From the IMG/VR virus record IMGVR_UViG_3300048834_001235, positions 1 to 22,513 of that record: a DNA stretch of 22,513 nt; one strand, 5' to 3'. The first letter of the stretch is position 1; every line of letters starts with the position of its first letter. The stretch comes from a virus. A program made the position numbers and the translations under genes. This document shows positions 663-10,201 of this stretch, piece by piece. The notes under the pieces are model-generated. The model did no database searches, had not been told where the DNA came from, and saw nothing but the letters and a program-made list of their open reading frames with translations.

Positions 663-745
663 ACATGGCCTTGCCCAGTCGCGTCGTGCCTTGCCTCACC
701 AGGCCAAGCCATGCCTAGGCCTGCATTCTAACCGTGGAGACCAAC

Positions 746-2104
746 ATGCAGATCGAAACTCGACCCATTGACAGTATCAAGCCCTACTCGGGCAACCCGC
801 GCCAGAACGACGAGGCCGTGGACGCCGTGGTGGCGTCGCTGCGCGAGTTCGGCTTTCGCCAGCCCATCGTCGTGGACCCCGACGGTGTGATCATCGTCGG
901 GCACACGCGCTACAAGGCGGCGCTAAAGCTTGGCATCAAGCAGGTGCCGGTGCACGTGGCCACCGACCTGACTCCGGCGCAGGTGAAGGCATATCGCATC
1001 GCGGACAACGCGACCAACGATCTCGCCAAGTGGGACTATGAACTCCTGCCCATCGAGCTGTCGTCGCTGAAGGAGATGAGCTTCGACCTCGGCCTGCTGG
1101 GGTTCGAGCCGCAGGAACTGACGCGCCTGATGTCGGGCGATGTGCAGGAGGGCCTGACCGATCCCGACGACGTGCCGCTTCCACCTGACGCGGCCGTCAC
1201 GCAGCCAGGCGACATCTGGGTTCTGGGCAACCACCGACTCATGTGCGGTGACAGCGGCAAAGCTGAGGATGTGGACCGGCTGCTCGATGGCGCCCCGATC
1301 CACCTGGTCAACACCGACCCGCCGTACAACGTGAAGGTCGAACCGCGCAGCAACAACGCCATCGCCGCGGGGCTGTCGTCGTTCCAGGCGACGAATACGA
1401 AGCCGCAGAATCATCACCAGTCTTTCGACGCCGCGCGGGGCGCCTTCAACCCTGACAAGGTCGCCAAGAAGCTGCGCCCCAAGGACCGGCCGCTGGCGAA
1501 CGACTTCGTGAGCGATGAGGCGTTCGACCAGATGCTTGATGCCTGGTTCGGCAACATGTCGCGCGTGCTGCTGCCCGGGCATGGGTTTTATATTTGGGGT
1601 GGCTTCAGCAACGTCGCCAACTACCCGGGCCCGCTGAAGCGCTGTGGACTGTACTTCAGCCAGACGATCATCTGGGATAAACAACATCCCGTCCTCACGC
1701 GCAAAGATTTCATGACAGCGCATGAATGGTGCTTTTACGGCTGGAAGGAAGGCGCCGCTCACCGCTTCTTCGGCCCGAACAACGCCACCGATCTGTGGCA
1801 CGTCAAGAAGATCCCGCCGCAGCAGACCGAGCACTTGACGTCCAAACCTGCTGAACTCGCGGTCCGCGCAATTCAGTATTCCTCGCTCGCAGGCGAAAAC
1901 GTTCTGGACCTTTTCGGCGGCAGCGGTTCCACCCTCATCGGGGCGGAGCAGACCGGACGCCGTGCCTACCTGATGGAGTTGGACACCCTCTATTGTGATC
2001 TGATCGTAGAGCGCTACCAGCGCTTCTCCGGCAAACCGGCGGTGCTGGAGCGAACGGGAACGTCGCCCATTCCCATTGGAGCGCGCGAGGAAAACATGCG
2101 ATGA
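746..2104 (+). CDS. ParB-domain / adenine-specific DNA methyltransferase fusion
   Basis: A 452-residue protein. Residues 6-90 form a ParB/sulfiredoxin-like N-terminal domain, with an IDSIKPY start, SL.EFGF.QPIVV and the signature GHTRYKAA. Residues about 155-440 are an N6/N4 methyltransferase of the beta order: catalytic motif DPPYN comes first (191-195), and the S-adenosylmethionine motif DLFGGSGSTL follows near 388-397. It should transfer a methyl group to adenine (or the N4 of cytosine) in double-stranded DNA. Such ParB-methylase fusions are common in phages, where they may mask restriction sites or mark the genome; the ParB domain may help target DNA. The ATG at 746 is preferred over the in-frame GTG at 734 because GGAGA at 736-740 is well spaced. 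The stop overlaps the HNH start by 4 nt (ATGA). No cognate restriction enzyme is evident. Confidence 0.93.
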   Translation: MQIETRPIDSIKPYSGNPRQNDEAVDAVVASLREFGFRQPIVVDPDGVIIVGHTRYKAALKLGIKQVPVHVATDLTPAQVKAYRIADNATNDLAKWDYELLPIELSSLKEMSFDLGLLGFEPQELTRLMSGDVQEGLTDPDDVPLPPDAAVTQPGDIWVLGNHRLMCGDSGKAEDVDRLLDGAPIHLVNTDPPYNVKVEPRSNNAIAAGLSSFQATNTKPQNHHQSFDAARGAFNPDKVAKKLRPKDRPLANDFVSDEAFDQMLDAWFGNMSRVLLPGHGFYIWGGFSNVANYPGPLKRCGLYFSQTIIWDKQHPVLTRKDFMTAHEWCFYGWKEGAAHRFFGPNNATDLWHVKKIPPQQTEHLTSKPAELAVRAIQYSSLAGENVLDLFGGSGSTLIGAEQTGRRAYLMELDTLYCDLIVERYQRFSGKPAVLERTGTSPIPIGAREENMR

Positions 2105-2577
2105 AAGCGGCGGCACGAGGTTACATCACGGAGTACGGCTACCGGCGCTTTCGGCTGCGGGATGGAACGATGAAGTTTGAGCACGTGCTGGTGTGGGAAC
2201 GGCATCATGGCCCGGTGCCCGCGGGTATGGAGATTCACCACATCAACGGCGACAAGCTCGACAACCGGATCGAGAACCTACTGCTGGTCACCCGGCTGCA
2301 GCACAAGCGCATCGAGACGGGCTGCTACCTGTTCAAAGGCGAATGGTGGAAGCGATGCCGTCGTTGCCGCTGGTACCGCCCGGTTGATTCCGAGTTCTAC
2401 GTCTACCCGGGCAGAAATGGTGCGATGGGTATCTGCAAGCGCTGCGCGATCGAAGTGGCCGTCCGCAACAAGCAGCGCCGCAAGCGGCGACGTGCTGCTG
2501 CCGGTTCCGGAATCGCTTCTTCACACGAGAAAACCCCAGCCGAGGCGGCCGGGGTCAAGGTTGCGGAGGCTCAGTGA
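2101..2577 (+). CDS. HNH endonuclease with C-terminal zinc finger
   Basis: A 158-residue protein. Residues 7-30 form a short beta-rich region of the type found in phage HNH enzymes. The nuclease motif EIHHINGDKLDNRIENL occupies 44-60, with paired His at 46-47, Asn at 49 and 55, and a late Asn at 59. A second metal site is likely from C86-x2-C89 and C112-x2-C115, then a very basic stretch (NKQRRKRRR) near 128-136. It probably cuts or nicks DNA, either as a homing-type enzyme or as a packaging helper. It starts inside the methyltransferase stop region, so the two are translationally coupled. The last 16 or so codons also carry the terminator of the leftward operon, and the C-terminus is compositionally odd, so its end may be poorly constrained. 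Confidence 0.85.
   Translation: MKAAARGYITEYGYRRFRLRDGTMKFEHVLVWERHHGPVPAGMEIHHINGDKLDNRIENLLLVTRLQHKRIETGCYLFKGEWWKRCRRCRWYRPVDSEFYVYPGRNGAMGICKRCAIEVAVRNKQRRKRRRAAAGSGIASSHEKTPAEAAGVKVAEAQ
2530..2554 (-). terminator. Intrinsic terminator of the leftward accessory operon, inside the HNH gene
   Basis: CCCC-A-GCC (2534-2541), loop GAGGC and GGC-C-GGGG (2547-2554) form a GC-rich stem with one A-C mismatch. On the minus strand it is followed by TTTTCTC (2533 downward). It lies 26 bp past the stop codon of the last leftward gene. It sits within the coding sequence of the opposing HNH gene, so both uses share the same bases. Confidence 0.7.
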
Positions 2578-2945: not shown

Positions 2946-3473
2946 TCACTTGTTCGCCGCGGCGAAGAGCCCGCGGTCAGTCTTCCGGAAGCGTGCGTCG
3001 GCGCCCTTGGCTCCGGTCTCGCGCAGGATGGCAGCGTACAGCGTGGCGTGCGGCGTCTTGCCCTTCGGGCTGGACCACAGGCCCTTGGCGGTGACTGCGT
3101 CCACCATCTGCTTCGCCGTCATCGGCTCGGCGGACTCGGCAAGGACCTGGGCGGCGGCGTCGAGCAGGCTGACCTTCTTCGGCTTGGCCGGGTCACGCGG
3201 CTTGCGAGCGTTCTTCTCCGCCGTCGCGGTGCCGACCTGCCGCTTGCTCGGCTCGGCCTTGCTGGGTTCGGGCTTGGCGGCCTGCTGCTTGCCGCCGGCA
3301 TTCACTTCGCCGCGCAGGCGCTGGGCCGACTTAATGCGCACCTTCTTGTTCGTGGACATGTTGGTGGCGTCCCACCCGCCGTGGCGGCTCTCGGCGTCGA
3401 TGCGGACCGGGACGACCTTGTCGCTGACCTTGGCCAAGTACGTTCCGCCGATCTTGATTTCACCCTTTTTCAT
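2946..3473 (-). CDS. HARE-HTH winged-helix protein with N-terminal beta domain
   Basis: A 175-residue protein with three parts. Residues 1-55 are a small beta-rich, probably SH3-like domain (KIGGTYLAKVSDKVVPVRI, then a TNKKVRIKSAQRL segment). Residues 56-100 are a Lys/Pro/Ala-rich linker. Residues 101-172 match the HARE-HTH fold (SLLDAAAQVL, then MTAKQMVDAV, GLW, and TLYAAILRE with FRKTDRGLFA). In bacteria this domain is known as a winged helix in restriction enzymes, RNA polymerase delta and chromatin-like proteins, so a DNA-binding or regulatory role is likely. The ribosome binding site GGAGA lies 7 nt before the ATG at 3473. I associate this architecture with phages and mobile elements of Planctomycetota and some Pseudomonadota; that is recollection, not a search result. 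Confidence 0.85.
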   Translation of the reverse strand: MKKGEIKIGGTYLAKVSDKVVPVRIDAESRHGGWDATNMSTNKKVRIKSAQRLRGEVNAGGKQQAAKPEPSKAEPSKRQVGTATAEKNARKPRDPAKPKKVSLLDAAAQVLAESAEPMTAKQMVDAVTAKGLWSSPKGKTPHATLYAAILRETGAKGADARFRKTDRGLFAAANK

Positions 3474-4290: not shown

Positions 4291-4533
4291 ATGCCTGAAG
4301 ACACCCAAAAGATTCCTTCCAACGGCGCTGTCCCAGGTGGCGGTTCCGCGGTCAATCCCGCGTCCCTGTCCATAGAGGACATGGCCCGGCTGCTGTCGGC
4401 GGCAGGTGGGCGTCGCGTGACGCCCGAGCAGGTCCAGGCGGACATCGAAGCCGGCGCGCCGCTGGGCCCGGGTGGGCGTCTCAACCTGGTGCACTACACC
4501 GCGTGGCTGGTTCGAGAGGTGCAGGCGAATTGA
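4291..4533 (+). CDS. Small packaging-associated protein, candidate small terminase, related to the terminase N-terminus
   Basis: An 80-residue protein. The ATG at 4291 is chosen because GGAG lies at 4278-4281; the alternative ATG at 4237 would add 18 residues without a clear ribosome binding site. The first 25 residues are Gly/Pro/Ser-rich. Residues 26-78 form a compact helical unit: SIEDMARLLSAAGG, then TPEQVQADIEAG and LNLVHYTAWLVREV. The closing part mirrors residues about 47-62 of the next gene (GDGRRIDLIKYAAWLFHE). Position directly before the large terminase suggests a small-terminase or DNA-recognition role, but there is no clear family match. Its stop overlaps the proposed TTG start of the terminase by 4 nt. 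Confidence 0.72.
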   Translation: MPEDTQKIPSNGAVPGGGSAVNPASLSIEDMARLLSAAGGRRVTPEQVQADIEAGAPLGPGGRLNLVHYTAWLVREVQAN

Positions 4534-6806
4534 AGGTTGACCCGCGACAACTTCGGGTGGCCGAGGCAGTGCGGATGCTCAACTCCACGCCGCTGGGCGA
4601 GGTGGTGCAGCCGCACGTGGTGTATCGCCACCAGAACCGCGCGGGCTATCGCATTGGTGACGGCAGAAGGATCGACCTGATCAAGTACGCGGCCTGGCTG
4701 TTCCACGAGCGGCACAGTCGGAGCGACGCGCCTGCGACCGAAGCCGACGCGTACGAGAAACACAAGGAGTTGATGAACACCCGCAGCCGCGCGATGAGCG
4801 AGTCGTCGCGAGACATCGCTGCCGAAGGCTGGGTGCATCCACCGGTCAACAGCGATCGCAAGGATGCCTGCCGCCGGAGCTTTCGGGGGTTCTGTGAAGC
4901 GTACTTCCCGCAGACGTTTCACCTGGCATGGTCGCCGGACCACCTCAAGGTCATCCGCAAGATCGAAACCGCCGTCCTCGAGGGCGGGCTGTTCGCTATG
5001 GCCATGCCCAGGGCAAGCGGAAAGTCTTCGTTATGCGAGACCGCCTGCCTGTGGTCGCTTCTATATGGCCACCGCGAGTTCGTCGCGCTCATCGGCTCCG
5101 ACGAGGAGCACGCTGCCGACATGCTGGACGCCATCAAGAGTGAGCTCGAAAACAACGACCTGCTGGAAGAGGATTTCTCCGAGGTGGCCGGACCCGTGCG
5201 CGCCTTGGAGGGCATCCATCAGCGCGCTTCGGGGCAATTGTTTCGTGGCGCCCGCACCCACATCGGGTGGACCGCCAAGGAGATCGTGCTGCCGACGATC
5301 GAAGGCTCGGCTGCGGCGGGCGCCATCATCAAGGTGGCTGGCATCACCGGTCGCATCCGCGGCATGAAACACAAGCGGGCCGACGGCGTGACGCTGCGGC
5401 CGTCGCTGGTGCTGCTGGATGATCCGCAGACGGATGAGTCGGCTCGATCACTGTCCCAGTGCGTGACGCGCGAGCAGATCCTCGCCGGCGCCATCCTAGG
5501 CCTGGCCGGACCCGGGCGCAAGATCGCCGGCCTGATGACGCTGACCGTGGTGCGGCCCGACGACATGGCCGACCGCATCCTCGACCGCGAGAAGCACCCC
5601 GAGTGGCAAGGCGAGCGGACGAAGATGGTGTACGCGTTCCCGGCGAACGAAAAACTGTGGCAGCAGTACGCCCAGCTACGGGCCGAAGGTCAGCGTAACG
5701 ACCGTGGTGTCGACGAGGCGACCGAGTTCTACCGCCAGCACCAGGTGGAGATGGACGAGGGTGCCCTGATCGCCTGGCCGCAGCGCCACAACCCGGACGA
5801 GCTCACAGCCATCCAGCACGCCATGAACCTCAAGCTCGACCATGGTGAGGCGGCGTTCTGGGCGGAATACCAGAATGAGCCCCTGGCCGATGCGGTGGAA
5901 GGCGAGACGCTGTCAGCGGACGTCATCGCCGCCAAGACCAACGGCATGAAACGTGCCGAGGTGCCCGTGGGCGTGAACCACCTGACCGCCTTTGTGGACG
6001 TGCAGGGCAACTTGCTGTTCTGGATGGTCTGCGGCTGGGAGGACGATTTTTCCGGCTATGTGCTGGATTACGGGGCGTACCCCGATCAGAAGCGGCCGTA
6101 TTTCACGCTGCGCGACGCCAAGCGCACGCTCATGGCGGTGCATCAGGGCACGGGCCAGGAAGGCGCCATCTACGCCGGGCTCGAAGCGCTGACCGGCAAC
6201 CTGCTCACCCGCAAGTACCGGCGCGATGACGGGGCCGAGATGGCCATCGAGCGTTGCCTCATCGATGCCAACTGGGGCAACAGCACAGACGTCGTCTACC
6301 AGTTCTCGCGCCAGAGCCCACACGCTGCCGTCATCATGCCCAGCCACGGGCGCTACGTCGGCGCGGCCAGCACGCCGTTCTCCGACTACAAGCCTAGGCG
6401 GGGTGACCGCGTGGGGCTGCACTGGCGCATCCCGAGTGTGCAGGGCAAGCGCAACGTCCGCTACACGCTGATCGACACGAATTTCTGGAAAAGCTTCATC
6501 CACGCCCGGCTCGCGGTGCCCATGGGCGACCCGGGCTGCCTGTCGCTGTTCACACCGGCGCATGGCGACCACCGCATGTTGGCCGAGCACCTGACCTCGG
6601 AGTACCGCGTGAAGACGCAGGGGCGAGGGCGGGAACTGGAGGAATGGAAACTGCGGCTGGCCGGTGCGGACAACCACTTCCTGGACTGCCTGGTGGGCTG
6701 CGCTGTGGCGGCGTCGATGCAGGGCGCCATCCTGTTCGGCACCGATGCTCGGCAGGCGGCGCGGCCGAGGATCAAACTGTCGGACCTGCAGGGGAGGCGG
6801 CGATGA
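4530..6806 (+). CDS. Phage terminase large subunit, GpA family
   Basis: The 758-residue packaging motor and nuclease. Residues 1-65 form an extra N-terminal helical unit related to the preceding small protein. The ATPase follows, with Walker A PRASGKSS near 160-167 and Walker B LVLLDDPQTDE near 293. The C-terminal nuclease domain of RNase H type has acidic residues in LTAFVDVQGN (about 485-494), CLIDANWG (about 575) and DNHFLDCLVG (about 713). These match the GpA family (lambda gpA), which cuts concatemers and pumps DNA through the portal. TTG at 4530 is preferred because it overlaps the previous stop and has GAGAGG at 4514-4519; GTG at 4503 is the alternative. The length is slightly above the usual 600-700. 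Its end overlaps the zinc-ribbon gene by 4 nt. Confidence 0.95.
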   Translation: MKVDPRQLRVAEAVRMLNSTPLGEVVQPHVVYRHQNRAGYRIGDGRRIDLIKYAAWLFHERHSRSDAPATEADAYEKHKELMNTRSRAMSESSRDIAAEGWVHPPVNSDRKDACRRSFRGFCEAYFPQTFHLAWSPDHLKVIRKIETAVLEGGLFAMAMPRASGKSSLCETACLWSLLYGHREFVALIGSDEEHAADMLDAIKSELENNDLLEEDFSEVAGPVRALEGIHQRASGQLFRGARTHIGWTAKEIVLPTIEGSAAAGAIIKVAGITGRIRGMKHKRADGVTLRPSLVLLDDPQTDESARSLSQCVTREQILAGAILGLAGPGRKIAGLMTLTVVRPDDMADRILDREKHPEWQGERTKMVYAFPANEKLWQQYAQLRAEGQRNDRGVDEATEFYRQHQVEMDEGALIAWPQRHNPDELTAIQHAMNLKLDHGEAAFWAEYQNEPLADAVEGETLSADVIAAKTNGMKRAEVPVGVNHLTAFVDVQGNLLFWMVCGWEDDFSGYVLDYGAYPDQKRPYFTLRDAKRTLMAVHQGTGQEGAIYAGLEALTGNLLTRKYRRDDGAEMAIERCLIDANWGNSTDVVYQFSRQSPHAAVIMPSHGRYVGAASTPFSDYKPRRGDRVGLHWRIPSVQGKRNVRYTLIDTNFWKSFIHARLAVPMGDPGCLSLFTPAHGDHRMLAEHLTSEYRVKTQGRGRELEEWKLRLAGADNHFLDCLVGCAVAASMQGAILFGTDARQAARPRIKLSDLQGRRR

Positions 6807-6976
6807 CCACCCACGCAAATCTTCAAGCCGCCAAAGGACTGATATGCCCGCGATGTGGTTGCGCACATTTCCATGTCCTGTACACTCGGCGGTCATCGGG
6901 TGGCAAAGTCATCCGCCGACGCGAGTGCAGGAACTGCCGCAGAAGGCTTACGACGACCGAGCGAATCACAGGCTAG
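6803..6976 (+). CDS. Small NrdR-like zinc-ribbon protein
   Basis: A 57-residue protein. Residues 15-54 read CPRCGCAHFHVLYTRRSS, then an RRRECRNCRRRLTTTER segment. The layout CPxC, a short segment with VL and R, an RRRECxxC and a TTxER ending is that of the NrdR N-terminal zinc ribbon, and it also resembles small phage Ogr/Delta-like zinc fingers. The ATP-cone of NrdR is absent, so this is not a full NrdR repressor. A nucleic-acid-binding or transcription-activator role is plausible. The ATG overlaps the terminase stop (ATGA) with GGGAGG upstream, so translation is coupled. The last 11 nt overlap the opposing PLD gene, so the two converge tail to tail. Confidence 0.8.
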   Translation: MTTHANLQAAKGLICPRCGCAHFHVLYTRRSSGGKVIRRRECRNCRRRLTTTERITG

Positions 6977-8144
6977 GTACCTGCGGCCAATCGAGTTGGT
7001 CGAGTTCAGCTCGTGACAAGCATCCATGCACAGCAAATGCCTGCTCCAGCCGCGCATTCATCCACGCCGCACCCTCGGCGGAAAGCTTGACAGCCGCTTG
7101 GCGAAGATAGGCCATTCGAGGATTCGTGTTGCCATGTCCCTGGGTGGCATGCCGCTGCGTCGATTCAAAGCAGTCAGGCCCCAACTCCATCATGAGTTGA
7201 TTGAGTGAGATGCCGTTCGCGACGGGACCGGCCAAGAACTCGCCACCATGGACGCGGATGTAGTGCGGCCACTGATCTTTCCAATGCCGTACTGCGACAT
7301 CTTCTGCAGTCGCGTCGTCGCGACCAGGTACATGTGCAATTGCTGTTGCACGTCCAAAGATCAGGGTGTCGGCGGGTCTTCGAACCAGCCGTCCCATGAA
7401 CATCACCGCACCGGGCGGAACGGAGCGAGGGCGCTTCTCTTTCGGATAGGCACAGGCCCAGTGGCACCCAGAGGCTCTGACCAGATCGAAGACTGTTTTG
7501 TCACGCTCCACCCTATTGTCACCTTGTCCCCAGAACTTCACAAAGGCCTGAGTACCGTCACCGGCATCTTGAGGCAGTGACAAGGGGAACGACTGGGTGC
7601 CATTCTGTACCGATACGCCCTCATCGCCGAGTTCAGTTACAACCCTGGGACGAGCGCCACCAAGTCGGACCATGTTGATCCGGGCTTCCCAATGATCAAG
7701 TCTTTCCAGACTCAGGTCGTTGCCTGCCTGCGCCCAAAGTCGGTGGAAATATCTGTGACAGCACTTGACAAGATCGCTGGCCTGCAAAAGGCATCCAAAC
7801 TCATGATTGCTCCTTAGCGCCGCGTCAGTCAGATTGGCAGACGTGACGATTGCTCGTTTTTGACCAAACAAATAGACCTTTGCGTGCAAGCCCTTCACAC
7901 CACGAATGCGTGCTCCGGCGGTGAGCAGCTCGCGGAGCGCAGCAATGTCACTGACGCCCTCACAAAAATCGCAGAGGCTAAATCGAGTGATGATCTGAAT
8001 CTGTTTAGGCTTCACGCGCTCAAGAAAACGTGAGACGACCTTCTTCTTGATGTACGGGCAGACGAGCCGAAGTTGCTCTCGACCCAGCGGCAACGCTTCG
8101 TTGAAATGGCGGTCCCAACCACAGTCCAGCAGCTTAAGCGTCAT
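6966..8144 (-). CDS. Phospholipase D-fold nuclease-like protein with C-terminal PUA/EVE-like region (cargo gene)
   Basis: A 392-residue protein read leftward inside the rightward late operon. Residues 80-120 form a PLD-type half site: HAKVYLF (H87, K89), TSANLT (S102, N104) and NHEFGCLL (E115), as in bacterial PLD-fold nucleases. The Asp of the classical HxKx4D is replaced by Gly, and only one motif is present, so the active form would be a dimer. Residues about 185-330 contain FVKFWG, HWACAYP, PPGAVMFMGRLV and PHYIRVH, which together look like a PUA/EVE-type modified-base or RNA-binding fold; this is tentative. Composition is nearer 50-55% GC in sampled lines, below its neighbours, consistent with recent acquisition. 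ATG 8144 is preferred to TTG 8156, although the ribosome binding site is weak. A DNA-cleaving defence or exclusion role is inferred. Confidence 0.82.
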   Translation of the reverse strand: MTLKLLDCGWDRHFNEALPLGREQLRLVCPYIKKKVVSRFLERVKPKQIQIITRFSLCDFCEGVSDIAALRELLTAGARIRGVKGLHAKVYLFGQKRAIVTSANLTDAALRSNHEFGCLLQASDLVKCCHRYFHRLWAQAGNDLSLERLDHWEARINMVRLGGARPRVVTELGDEGVSVQNGTQSFPLSLPQDAGDGTQAFVKFWGQGDNRVERDKTVFDLVRASGCHWACAYPKEKRPRSVPPGAVMFMGRLVRRPADTLIFGRATAIAHVPGRDDATAEDVAVRHWKDQWPHYIRVHGGEFLAGPVANGISLNQLMMELGPDCFESTQRHATQGHGNTNPRMAYLRQAAVKLSAEGAAWMNARLEQAFAVHGCLSRAELDQLDWPQVPSL

Positions 8145-8171
8145 TGTGGCCCCCAAACAGATGAGTGAATG

Positions 8172-8183
8172 TCTACCCGTAGA
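8172..8183. promoter_or_regulatory. Inverted repeat upstream of the PLD gene (candidate operator)
   Basis: TCTAC-CC-GTAGA is a perfect 5-bp inverted repeat with a 2-nt centre. It lies 28-39 nt before the ATG of the leftward PLD gene, in an AT-richer 100-bp gap. Position fits a repressor site or leader hairpin; no -35/-10 pair is clear. Confidence 0.25.
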
Positions 8184-8227
8184 TTAACCTGATCCGACTT
8201 CACATTTTCCATAGCCAAGCCACCGTC

Positions 8228-8249
8228 TCAACCTGTCCTTAGAGGTTGA
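8228..8249 (+). promoter_or_regulatory. Inverted repeat overlapping the ribosome binding site of the next gene
   Basis: TCAACCT (8228-8234) and AGGTTGA (8243-8249) are perfect 7-bp inverted arms with an 8-nt spacer. The right arm includes part of the AGAGG Shine-Dalgarno and touches the ATG at 8249. A hairpin here would hide the ribosome binding site. It could equally be a protein-binding dyad or a trace of the right edge of the inserted PLD gene. Confidence 0.3.
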
Positions 8250-8485
8250 TGACAACCCTCGCGCTCGATCCATCGACGTGGCCCCCCGGCCTGACCCGTG
8301 CCGCCATGCACCACTGCCCGCTGTCGCTGCGTGAAGACGCGCTGCAGGCCGCATGGCTTGCCCATGCCGAAGGGCGCAAGCCCGACTCCGCGGTGCGGGC
8401 CGTGCTACGCCACGAGCAGCGCCACAACGCCACCAAGCCCAACTTTGACCTGTGCCCCACGAACCGCGTGCGACGTCGGTTCTGA
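8249..8485 (+). CDS. Hypothetical phage protein upstream of portal
   Basis: A 78-residue protein. It begins at ATG 8249 (TTG immediately before it is the alternative), with AGAGG only 3 nt upstream, an unusually tight spacing. The visible features are DPSTWPPGLTRAAMHHCP, then LREDALQAAWLAHAEGR and a basic tail. The middle helix has the look of a short sigma-factor or DNA-binding helix (AWLAHAEGR), but I do not recognise a family. It resumes the late operon after the PLD insertion and precedes the small gene and portal, so a packaging or connector-adjacent role is possible. Confidence 0.68.
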   Translation: MTTLALDPSTWPPGLTRAAMHHCPLSLREDALQAAWLAHAEGRKPDSAVRAVLRHEQRHNATKPNFDLCPTNRVRRRF

Positions 8486-8504
8486 CTCTCGGGATGTTGA
8501 ACCC

Positions 8505-8702
8505 ATGGCAGACGAACTGGAACAGTCCATCCGCGACAACGCCGCCGGTCCCAAGCGGGCCAAGGGCGATAGCTCCGAGATGGAGCAGCACTCACTGCAG
8601 GACCAGATCGCCGCCGACCGCTACCTCGCCAGCAAGGGTGCCACCAACCGCAAGGGCTTGGGCGCCATCTTCAAGAAGCTCATTCCGCCGGGAACCGTCT
8701 GA
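8505..8702 (+). CDS. Small conserved-looking protein directly before portal
   Basis: A 65-residue charged protein. It contains MADELEQSIRDNAAGP, a DSSEMEQHSLQDQI segment, DRYLASK and a closing KLIPPGTV. It sits where lambda has the head-completion gene W, between terminase and portal, but sequence resemblance to gpW is not evident. I recall similar short proteins ending in PPG.. just before portal genes in related phages, without a known function. The ATG at 8505 has only a weak GGGA upstream. Its stop shares bases with the portal start (TGATG), so the two are coupled. Confidence 0.72.
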   Translation: MADELEQSIRDNAAGPKRAKGDSSEMEQHSLQDQIAADRYLASKGATNRKGLGAIFKKLIPPGTV

Positions 8703-10201
8703 TGCTCCGTTGGCTGCGCAATCTCGCTTCACCTGCCTGGCCACAACGCCCTGCTGCCGCTGCGGGATTGCGTATCGTCCGAGCAGGTTCCACGCGATCA
8801 CTCAGCGCCCGCTATGACGCGGCTGTCACCAACAGCGACAACCGCCGCCACTGGGCCAACGCCGATGGCCTGTCCCCCAACGCCGCCATCAGCCCGGAGG
8901 TTCGGCGCGTCCTGCGTAATCGCGCCCGCTACGAGGTCGCGAACAACTCGTATGCCCGCGGCATCGTGCTCACTCTGGCCAACGACGTGATTGGCACCGG
9001 CCCGCGGCTGCAGATGCTGACCACCGACCCCACGGCGAATCGAACCATCGAACTGGCATTTGCCGAATGGGCCGACGCCGTGGGGCTTGCCTCCAAGCTC
9101 CGGACGATGCGCATGGCTCGCGCCGACTCCGGTGAAGCGTTCGGCATCCTGACCAGCAACCCCGGCGTGCCCGTACCCGTGCAACTGGACCTGCGCCTGG
9201 TGGAGGCCGACCAGGTCGCCTCGCCGCTGGGATTGGCTCGCCAGGGCCAGCCGGTGGACGGCATCGTGTTCGACCGCTACGGCAACCCGATCGAGTACCA
9301 CGTGCTGCGCCAGCACCCCGGTGACGGCGCCTCGCTGGCCCGATCGGCTGCGGAATTCGACCGCATTCCCGCACTGGCGATGCTGCACTACTTCCGGGGG
9401 GACCGGCCTGGGCAGGCGCGTGGCATCCCCGACATCACGCCCGCGCTGCCGCTGTTCGCGCAACTGCGGCGCTACACGCTGGCGGTGATCGCCGCCGCCG
9501 AAACCGCTGCCGATTTCGCTGCTGTGCTCTACACCGACGCGCCGGCCAATGGCGAAGCTGACCCCGTCGAGCCCATGGACCTGGTGGAACTCGAACACCG
9601 CATGGCCACCGTCCTGCCGGGCGGCTGGAAGCTGGGTCAGGTGACGGCCGAGCAGCCCGCGACGACATATGGCGAGTTCAAGCGCGAGATCCTCAACGAG
9701 ATCGCCCGCTGCCTGAACATGCCCTACAACATCGCGGCGGGCAATTCCTCGGGCTACAACTACGCCTCAGGTCGCCTCGACCATCAAACGTACTACAAGA
9801 GCATCCGCGTCGAGCAGCAGCACCTGCAGACCACGGTGCTCGACCGCATCCTGCGCGCCTGGCTGGACGAGGCCACGCTGGTCGAGGGCTTGCTGCCGCA
9901 ATCGATGCGTACACGCGATGCCGGCGATCAGCACTTCGCTCACACCTGGTTCTGGGACGGCCACGAGCACGTGGACCCGGCCAAGGAGGCGAACGCCCAG
10001 GCCACGCGCTTGTCGAACCACACCACCACGCTGGCCATCGAATACGCACGCCAAGGGCGCGACTGGGAAGAGCAACTGCGTCAGCGTGCGGCAGAGGTGG
10101 CGATGATGCGCGAACTCGGTCTGAGCCTGGCGGACGCCCAACCCAACACCGAGATGAACGAGGAGGACACGGATGTCGAAGATTCGGCCAAAGCCGCTTG
10201 A
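8702..10201 (+). CDS. Lambda-type phage portal protein
   Basis: A 499-residue protein, similar in size to lambda gpB (about 530). The N-terminal section has SARYDAAVTN and the conserved R.R.ARYEVANNSYARGIV region (near residues 70-90), then DVIGTGPRLQ. Downstream come ADSGEAFGILTSN, DLRLVEADQV and the FDRYGNPIEYHVL section, all typical of portal family 2 (lambda B). The C-terminal half contains RCLNMPYNIAAGNSSGYNYA, the motif I associate with portal crown and clip elements. Twelve copies form the DNA channel at one capsid vertex and dock the terminase. It starts with TGATG coupling and its end overlaps the capsid-fusion gene by 29 nt. Confidence 0.95.
   Translation: MLRWLRNLASPAWPQRPAAAAGLRIVRAGSTRSLSARYDAAVTNSDNRRHWANADGLSPNAAISPEVRRVLRNRARYEVANNSYARGIVLTLANDVIGTGPRLQMLTTDPTANRTIELAFAEWADAVGLASKLRTMRMARADSGEAFGILTSNPGVPVPVQLDLRLVEADQVASPLGLARQGQPVDGIVFDRYGNPIEYHVLRQHPGDGASLARSAAEFDRIPALAMLHYFRGDRPGQARGIPDITPALPLFAQLRRYTLAVIAAAETAADFAAVLYTDAPANGEADPVEPMDLVELEHRMATVLPGGWKLGQVTAEQPATTYGEFKREILNEIARCLNMPYNIAAGNSSGYNYASGRLDHQTYYKSIRVEQQHLQTTVLDRILRAWLDEATLVEGLLPQSMRTRDAGDQHFAHTWFWDGHEHVDPAKEANAQATRLSNHTTTLAIEYARQGRDWEEQLRQRAAEVAMMRELGLSLADAQPNTEMNEEDTDVEDSAKAA

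Follow-up and report, generated by a model that had tools for sequence, protein, structure and literature searches.

What is a nuclease gene doing in the late operon of a phage, on the opposite strand and between the genes for the terminase and the portal? The question arises from a 22,513-base virus record (IMG/VR IMGVR_UViG_3300048834_001235), probably a fragment, which is called the window here at its full length. A megablast search with the window phage among phages gave no match. The region in question is laid out as follows.

4503 to 6806, plus strand: terminase large subunit (GpA type), the left border of the hotspot described below
6803 to 6976, plus strand: small NrdR-type Zn-ribbon gene (Pfam Zn_ribbon_NrdR, 5e-10), which borders the slot
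6966 to 8144, minus strand: 392-aa protein with a PLD nuclease and a C-terminal domain, a proposed phage-borne restriction-type defence gene
8702 to 10201, plus strand: portal protein of the lambda family (Pfam Phage_portal_2, 6e-60), the right border of the hotspot

The nuclease reading frame is intact, with its stop codon at 6966-6968 on the minus strand, and the ATG at 8144 is likely its start, because homologues share the same beginning (MSFKLLDSGW). The original prediction had placed the gene at 6966-8248; its reading frame is real and intact, but the end at 8248 takes in about 100 bp of upstream sequence. Its description of a gene inserted against the late operon is borne out, since the gene runs antisense between the terminase/Zn-ribbon pair and the portal. 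The Zn-ribbon gene, which is conserved in many related loci, and the nuclease gene overlap tail to tail by 11 bp at their 3' ends.

Base composition and comparison with a close relative show that the gene is acquired cargo. Its GC content is 0.566 and its GC3 0.593, against a GC3 of 0.81-0.88 in five phage genes (terminase, portal, capsid, methyltransferase and a tail-region ORF), in agreement with the lower GC first noticed for the insert. In the close relative L025, whose terminase is 95% identical in protein and 88% in DNA, the nuclease gene is absent, and the two sequences differ by one exchanged block.

6862 to 8232, no strand assigned: block exchanged relative to the cargo-free L025; nucleotide homology ends at 6861 and restarts at 8233

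L025 has only about 206 bp in place of this block. With foreign composition, absence from a close relative and a slot that is variably filled, the gene is a moron. A gene of the phage life cycle, serving DNA processing, recombination or packaging rather than defence, might be expected in the head gene region beside the terminase, yet such a gene would hardly be missing from L025, lie antisense to the late operon with foreign composition, or be absent from every other phage record searched while its homologues are bacterial and plasmid genes; we regard this explanation as very improbable.

Control signals around the gene are sparse. The control-like dyads that had been proposed upstream reduce to one palindrome with 5-bp arms, TCTACCCGTAGA, at 8172-8183, and dyads as control elements are rejected, since 29% of shuffled sequences have as many. 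No terminator was found around the gene. One promoter-like site was seen.

8204 to 8231, minus strand: weak sigma-70-like site, TTGAGA-16-GAAAAT, a possible promoter of the gene's own

One such site was found where 0.4 is expected by chance, and the match is not in itself evidence of function.

Across related phages the site of insertion turns out to be a hotspot for cargo. Collecting related viruses through their terminase gave 162 distinct loci, in which terminase and portal lie a median of about 520 bp and at most 4.6 kb apart; a slot was counted as loaded at 900 bp or more. The interval corresponds to 6806-8702 in the window and was followed in L025-L104 and L142-L277. It is at least 900 bp long in 34 of the 162 loci, whereas the portal-capsid junction exceeds 900 bp in only 1 of 109. 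Profile matches reveal recognisable defence or toxin-antitoxin cargo in 11 of the 34 loaded slots.

AbiE: AbiEi in L078, AbiEi/AbiEii in L207 and AbiEii in L267
Prokaryotic viperin (pVip, 2e-81): L192:7911-8798, minus strand, on a viral contig
IetA/IetS pair: L195:4671-8360, plus strand
HipA: L070 and L183
AAA_14/DUF4143 ATPase, within the PADLOC candidate PDC-S01: L047
ImmA/IrrE with MazG: L049 and L266, the MazG of L266 assigned by comparison with L049
DpnII/MboI-type nuclease beside a DCD-PD-(D/E)XK protein: L051:2498-5269

The slot is not exclusively defensive, because related C5-cytosine methyltransferases occupy 5 of the 34 (L220 by Pfam; L218, L229, L231 and L237 by similarity) and about half hold unrecognised genes. 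A pentapeptide/ion-channel protein lies in the slot of L087, and weakly annotated or unrecognised occupants include L039:3055-3837, L058:4996-6727, L151:8436-10366 and L181:8438-9493. The partner protein in L051 combines Dev_Cell_Death (DCD) domains with a C-terminal PD-(D/E)XK-type region and is possibly another phage-borne reader-nuclease. No relative of the window nuclease occurs in the other loaded slots of the phage group.

The protein itself consists of two conserved parts joined by a variable linker. Identity to the window protein across homologues is 44-52% in the PLD region (residues 1-140), 24-30% in the linker and 42-58% in the C-terminal domain (residues 196-375).

7734 to 8078, minus strand: PLD nuclease domain, residues 23-137, with a single HxK...SxN site formed by H87, K89, S102, N104, N113 and E115
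7020 to 7559, minus strand: conserved C-terminal domain, residues 196-375, about 180 aa, a proposed target-recognition domain

Residues 23-137 match Pfam PLDc_2 significantly (E 4e-12). The single site that had been read from the sequence (H87, K89, S102, N104, E115) is correctly placed, and all of these residues, together with N113, are invariant in 12 of 12 PLD-bearing homologues. For the PLD half, the confidence of the AlphaFold model is moderate to good, and the top Foldseek matches of this model are the single-site nucleases Zucchini, NucT and Nuc, with E-values of 7e-6 to 2e-4 and target-normalised TM-scores of about 0.5-0.63. A nuclease profile also matches PDB 7clg at 3e-5, an entry deposited as a putative helicase, which we take to be SauUSI. 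By its HxK motif, downstream S/N residues and PLD fold, the protein is thus a predicted nuclease of the PLD superfamily, whose enzymes also act on RNA, lipids and other phosphodiesters.

The C-terminal domain is present in every full-length homologue and is constrained as much as the nuclease domain, because its identity across homologues is equally high. That the C-terminal half is a real and conserved domain therefore stands; the resemblance to PUA/EVE-type base readers proposed for it is confirmed by no test. A Pfam scan of 12 C-domains returned no convincing match (the best, 0.079, in 1 of 12), and a C-domain profile matched no solved structure in the PDB. AlphaFold gives the domain a pLDDT of about 30-38, both in full-length models (7 sequences) and in models of the domain alone (8 sequences). 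Alignment of the C-domain with EVE and DCD by hhalign was negative, but an EVE-to-EVE positive control failed too. By eye, its strand-helix-strand-strand order with "G(A)VMFM...IFGRA" recalls EVE proteins, a likeness to be taken as a hint rather than a finding. A search of 398 genomes with the C-domain profile for fusions to other nucleases gave convincing matches only to full-length members already known. Target recognition by this domain is proposed from the architecture.

Chains that join a reader to a PLD nuclease form a class of architecture that has been described before, so the original remark that no described system with exactly this composition could be named was too strong. EVE-PLDc fusion proteins, predicted to be type IV modification-dependent enzymes, likewise join a PLD nuclease to a presumed recognition domain with a predicted restriction role (PMC7641849); unlike them, the window family has a C-domain that in none of 12 members is convincingly recognised by Pfam as EVE or another PUA-like domain. 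BfiI has an N-terminal PLD dimer with the active site at the dimer interface, followed by a C-terminal DNA-binding domain (PMC4081073). BfiI/BmrI and NgoFVII share with the window protein an N-terminal single-site PLD domain, a C-terminal domain of similar size and a stand-alone chain. SauUSI, a type IV enzyme made of PLD, helicase and target-recognition domains, is, among solved structures, the one most closely related to the PLD half by sequence profile; its dimer is held by the nuclease domains (PMC7913695), and the window protein differs from it in having no ATP-driven helicase. A virus-encoded restriction enzyme also has a characterised precedent in HHPV4I, which depends on m6A and has been suggested to keep other viruses out (PMC10101028), although that protein belongs to an archaeal virus and is built from SRA, winged helix and HNH domains instead of PLD.

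The likeness to BfiI and NgoFVII raises the possibility of a type II enzyme, in which the PLD domains dimerise, the C-domain reads an unmodified sequence and a host or phage methyltransferase protects self. Beyond the shared layout, the PLD half matches RE_NgoFVII weakly (E 3e-4), although the 20.4 bits fall below the Pfam cut-off of 23.8 and cover residues 86-139 only. A BfiI search with the profile of the window family found no match, and no B3-like domain like that of BfiI is detectable in a C-domain that lacks a solved-structure match. The phage genome also encodes a methyltransferase.

734 to 2104, plus strand: ParB-N6/N4 methyltransferase, a conserved phage gene

One remnant homologue adjoins another N6/N4 methyltransferase. 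The phage enzyme, however, is kept at 94.5% identity in L025, which has no nuclease, and across the contexts surveyed the homologues have no methyltransferase that regularly lies beside them. The phage methyltransferase is therefore rejected as a dedicated partner of the nuclease, because it is conserved in relatives that lack it, and the suggestion that it bears on self versus non-self is weakened accordingly. With no dedicated methyltransferase, the window protein departs from BfiI and NgoFVII on a further point, and a type II enzyme seems an unlikely alternative. In the same part of the window (734-2577), the ParB-methyltransferase is widespread in related phages, the HNH gene that comes after it occurs in only 5 loci including the window, and a 175-aa gene on the minus strand at 2946-3473 has matches in 128 loci of the phage group, the window included.

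Annotation tools point elsewhere. The PADLOC model PDLC02599, named "DrmC", matches the window protein over its full length (E 4e-120), as would be expected of a DrmC-type accessory nuclease of DISARM. The curated DISARM_DrmC_I model, by contrast, scores 41.7 bits over 51 aa against a cut-off of 133. There is no drmA or drmB in the window, and MZB (DUF1998, DrmB) is absent from 11 of 12 homologue-carrying genomes and lies on another contig in the twelfth. In most DISARM DrmC proteins a four-helix bundle has been reported at the N-terminus (PMC12458937), whereas the PLD domain of the window protein begins near residue 10-23 with no such bundle before it. With no DISARM genes around and the curated model missed, membership of DISARM is rejected as an assignment from the PADLOC label, which is probably no guide to function for PDLC02599; an accessory role in DISARM is given scarcely any weight.

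Homologues provide the other line of evidence. The family is rare in bacteria: PDLC02599 matches occur in 3 of 398 Pseudomonadota genomes, in 2 of the 385 genomes of one class and in 2 of the 298 of one family. Plasmid relatives with about 43% identity come from Ti-type plasmids of Agrobacterium and from plasmids of Rhizobium. Searches of phage and viral collections found no relatives and no second phage carrier of the window nuclease; weak Staphylococcus matches in these searches cover the PLD core only. Rarity and the missing second carrier leave no independent phage example, which counts against a defence reading.

Neighbourhoods of these homologues argue in the other direction, with several copies beside defence genes. 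Type I restriction-modification genes lie near homologues in two independent settings (L021/L024 and L022). On Rhizobium plasmids the homologue is flanked by an AAA ATPase and an S8 peptidase that resemble IetAS, with 35.8% and 24.5% identity to the IetA/IetS pair that L195 carries in the phage slot. An FRG-domain gene lies near the homologue in L008 and a second PLD gene in L010; the L013 homologue has no recognised neighbour. In L023, an SNF2-type helicase and the N6/N4 methyltransferase already mentioned adjoin a remnant that keeps the C-domain only. What stays constant across these settings is the gene alone, a pattern that speaks for a stand-alone function within defence neighbourhoods.

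Family members also vary in integrity and length. Broken or partial copies occur at L014:9983-11151, L015:10001-10676 and L023:9578-10147, in R. johnstonii pRL10, S. fredii and one further genome. Some Agrobacterium homologues carry an extra C-terminal region of about 130 aa (L005:5001-6611 compared with L002:8001-9611), which is fused in pTiCFBP5477 and a separate ORF in pTi-SAKURA.

One recurring neighbour suggests a different mode of action. In Ti-type plasmids an Abi_2 gene precedes the homologue by 15 bp, and Abi_2 adjoins the homologue in two further genomes, as might be expected if the protein were a toxic or abortive-infection nuclease, acting on DNA or RNA, that is restrained by such a partner and released on infection. 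Zucchini-type PLD enzymes are known to act on RNA, and the phage slot also holds the toxin-antitoxin genes AbiE and HipA. Against this, no partner gene accompanies the window gene, and Abi_2 is missing beside the homologues in type I restriction-modification, IetAS-like and other contexts, which makes abortive infection a distinctly unlikely explanation.

The explanation that fits best, and that we hold with moderate confidence from sequence comparison, is that the gene encodes a stand-alone restriction-type nuclease, acquired by the phage as cargo and used by the carrier cell against other phages. By analogy with Nuc, BfiI and SauUSI, two chains would dimerise through their PLD domains to form one composite active site. 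The C-terminal domain would recognise a feature of foreign DNA, and the carrier would be spared because its own DNA lacks that feature. Cutting of the recognised DNA would then exclude competing phages. Recognition of modified DNA, in the style of type IV enzymes, is favoured over ordinary type II restriction because the family has no consistent methyltransferase partner and the phage ParB-methyltransferase is kept without the nuclease, though this is the least certain part of the proposal.

On balance, the original prediction is supported in part. The inserted PLD-nuclease gene stands, as does its standing as a phage-borne defence candidate, which gains from the AbiE, HipA, viperin, IetAS and restriction genes that fill the slot in relatives and from the homologues beside defence genes. 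Its PUA/EVE reader is not supported, and its methyltransferase link is weakened. The gene is probably a weapon against rival viruses.

Novelty may lie in the C-domain, in the family as a stand-alone unit and in the hotspot between terminase and portal. A literature search for such a hotspot found no description of it, an absence that is no proof of novelty. A bolder view, possible but doubtful, is that the C-domain is a new sensor of DNA modification or foreign DNA, unrelated in sequence to known readers, and that the protein is a minimal one-chain, ATP-independent restriction enzyme traded by phages through a previously undescribed defence hotspot.

These observations concern both the protein family and the phages that carry such cargo. 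A conserved, uncharacterised family is filed by PADLOC as DrmC with no support from gene context, and defence surveys may therefore miscount it. The P2 and P4 hotspots are fixed slots in phage genomes that hold interchangeable anti-phage genes (PMC9122126). The terminase-portal slot acts like them, as a fixed position with many known defence genes, here between the terminase/Zn-ribbon genes and the portal in phages with a lambda-family portal. Since known defence genes are so numerous in the slot, the genes in it that are not recognised make good candidates for new anti-phage systems.
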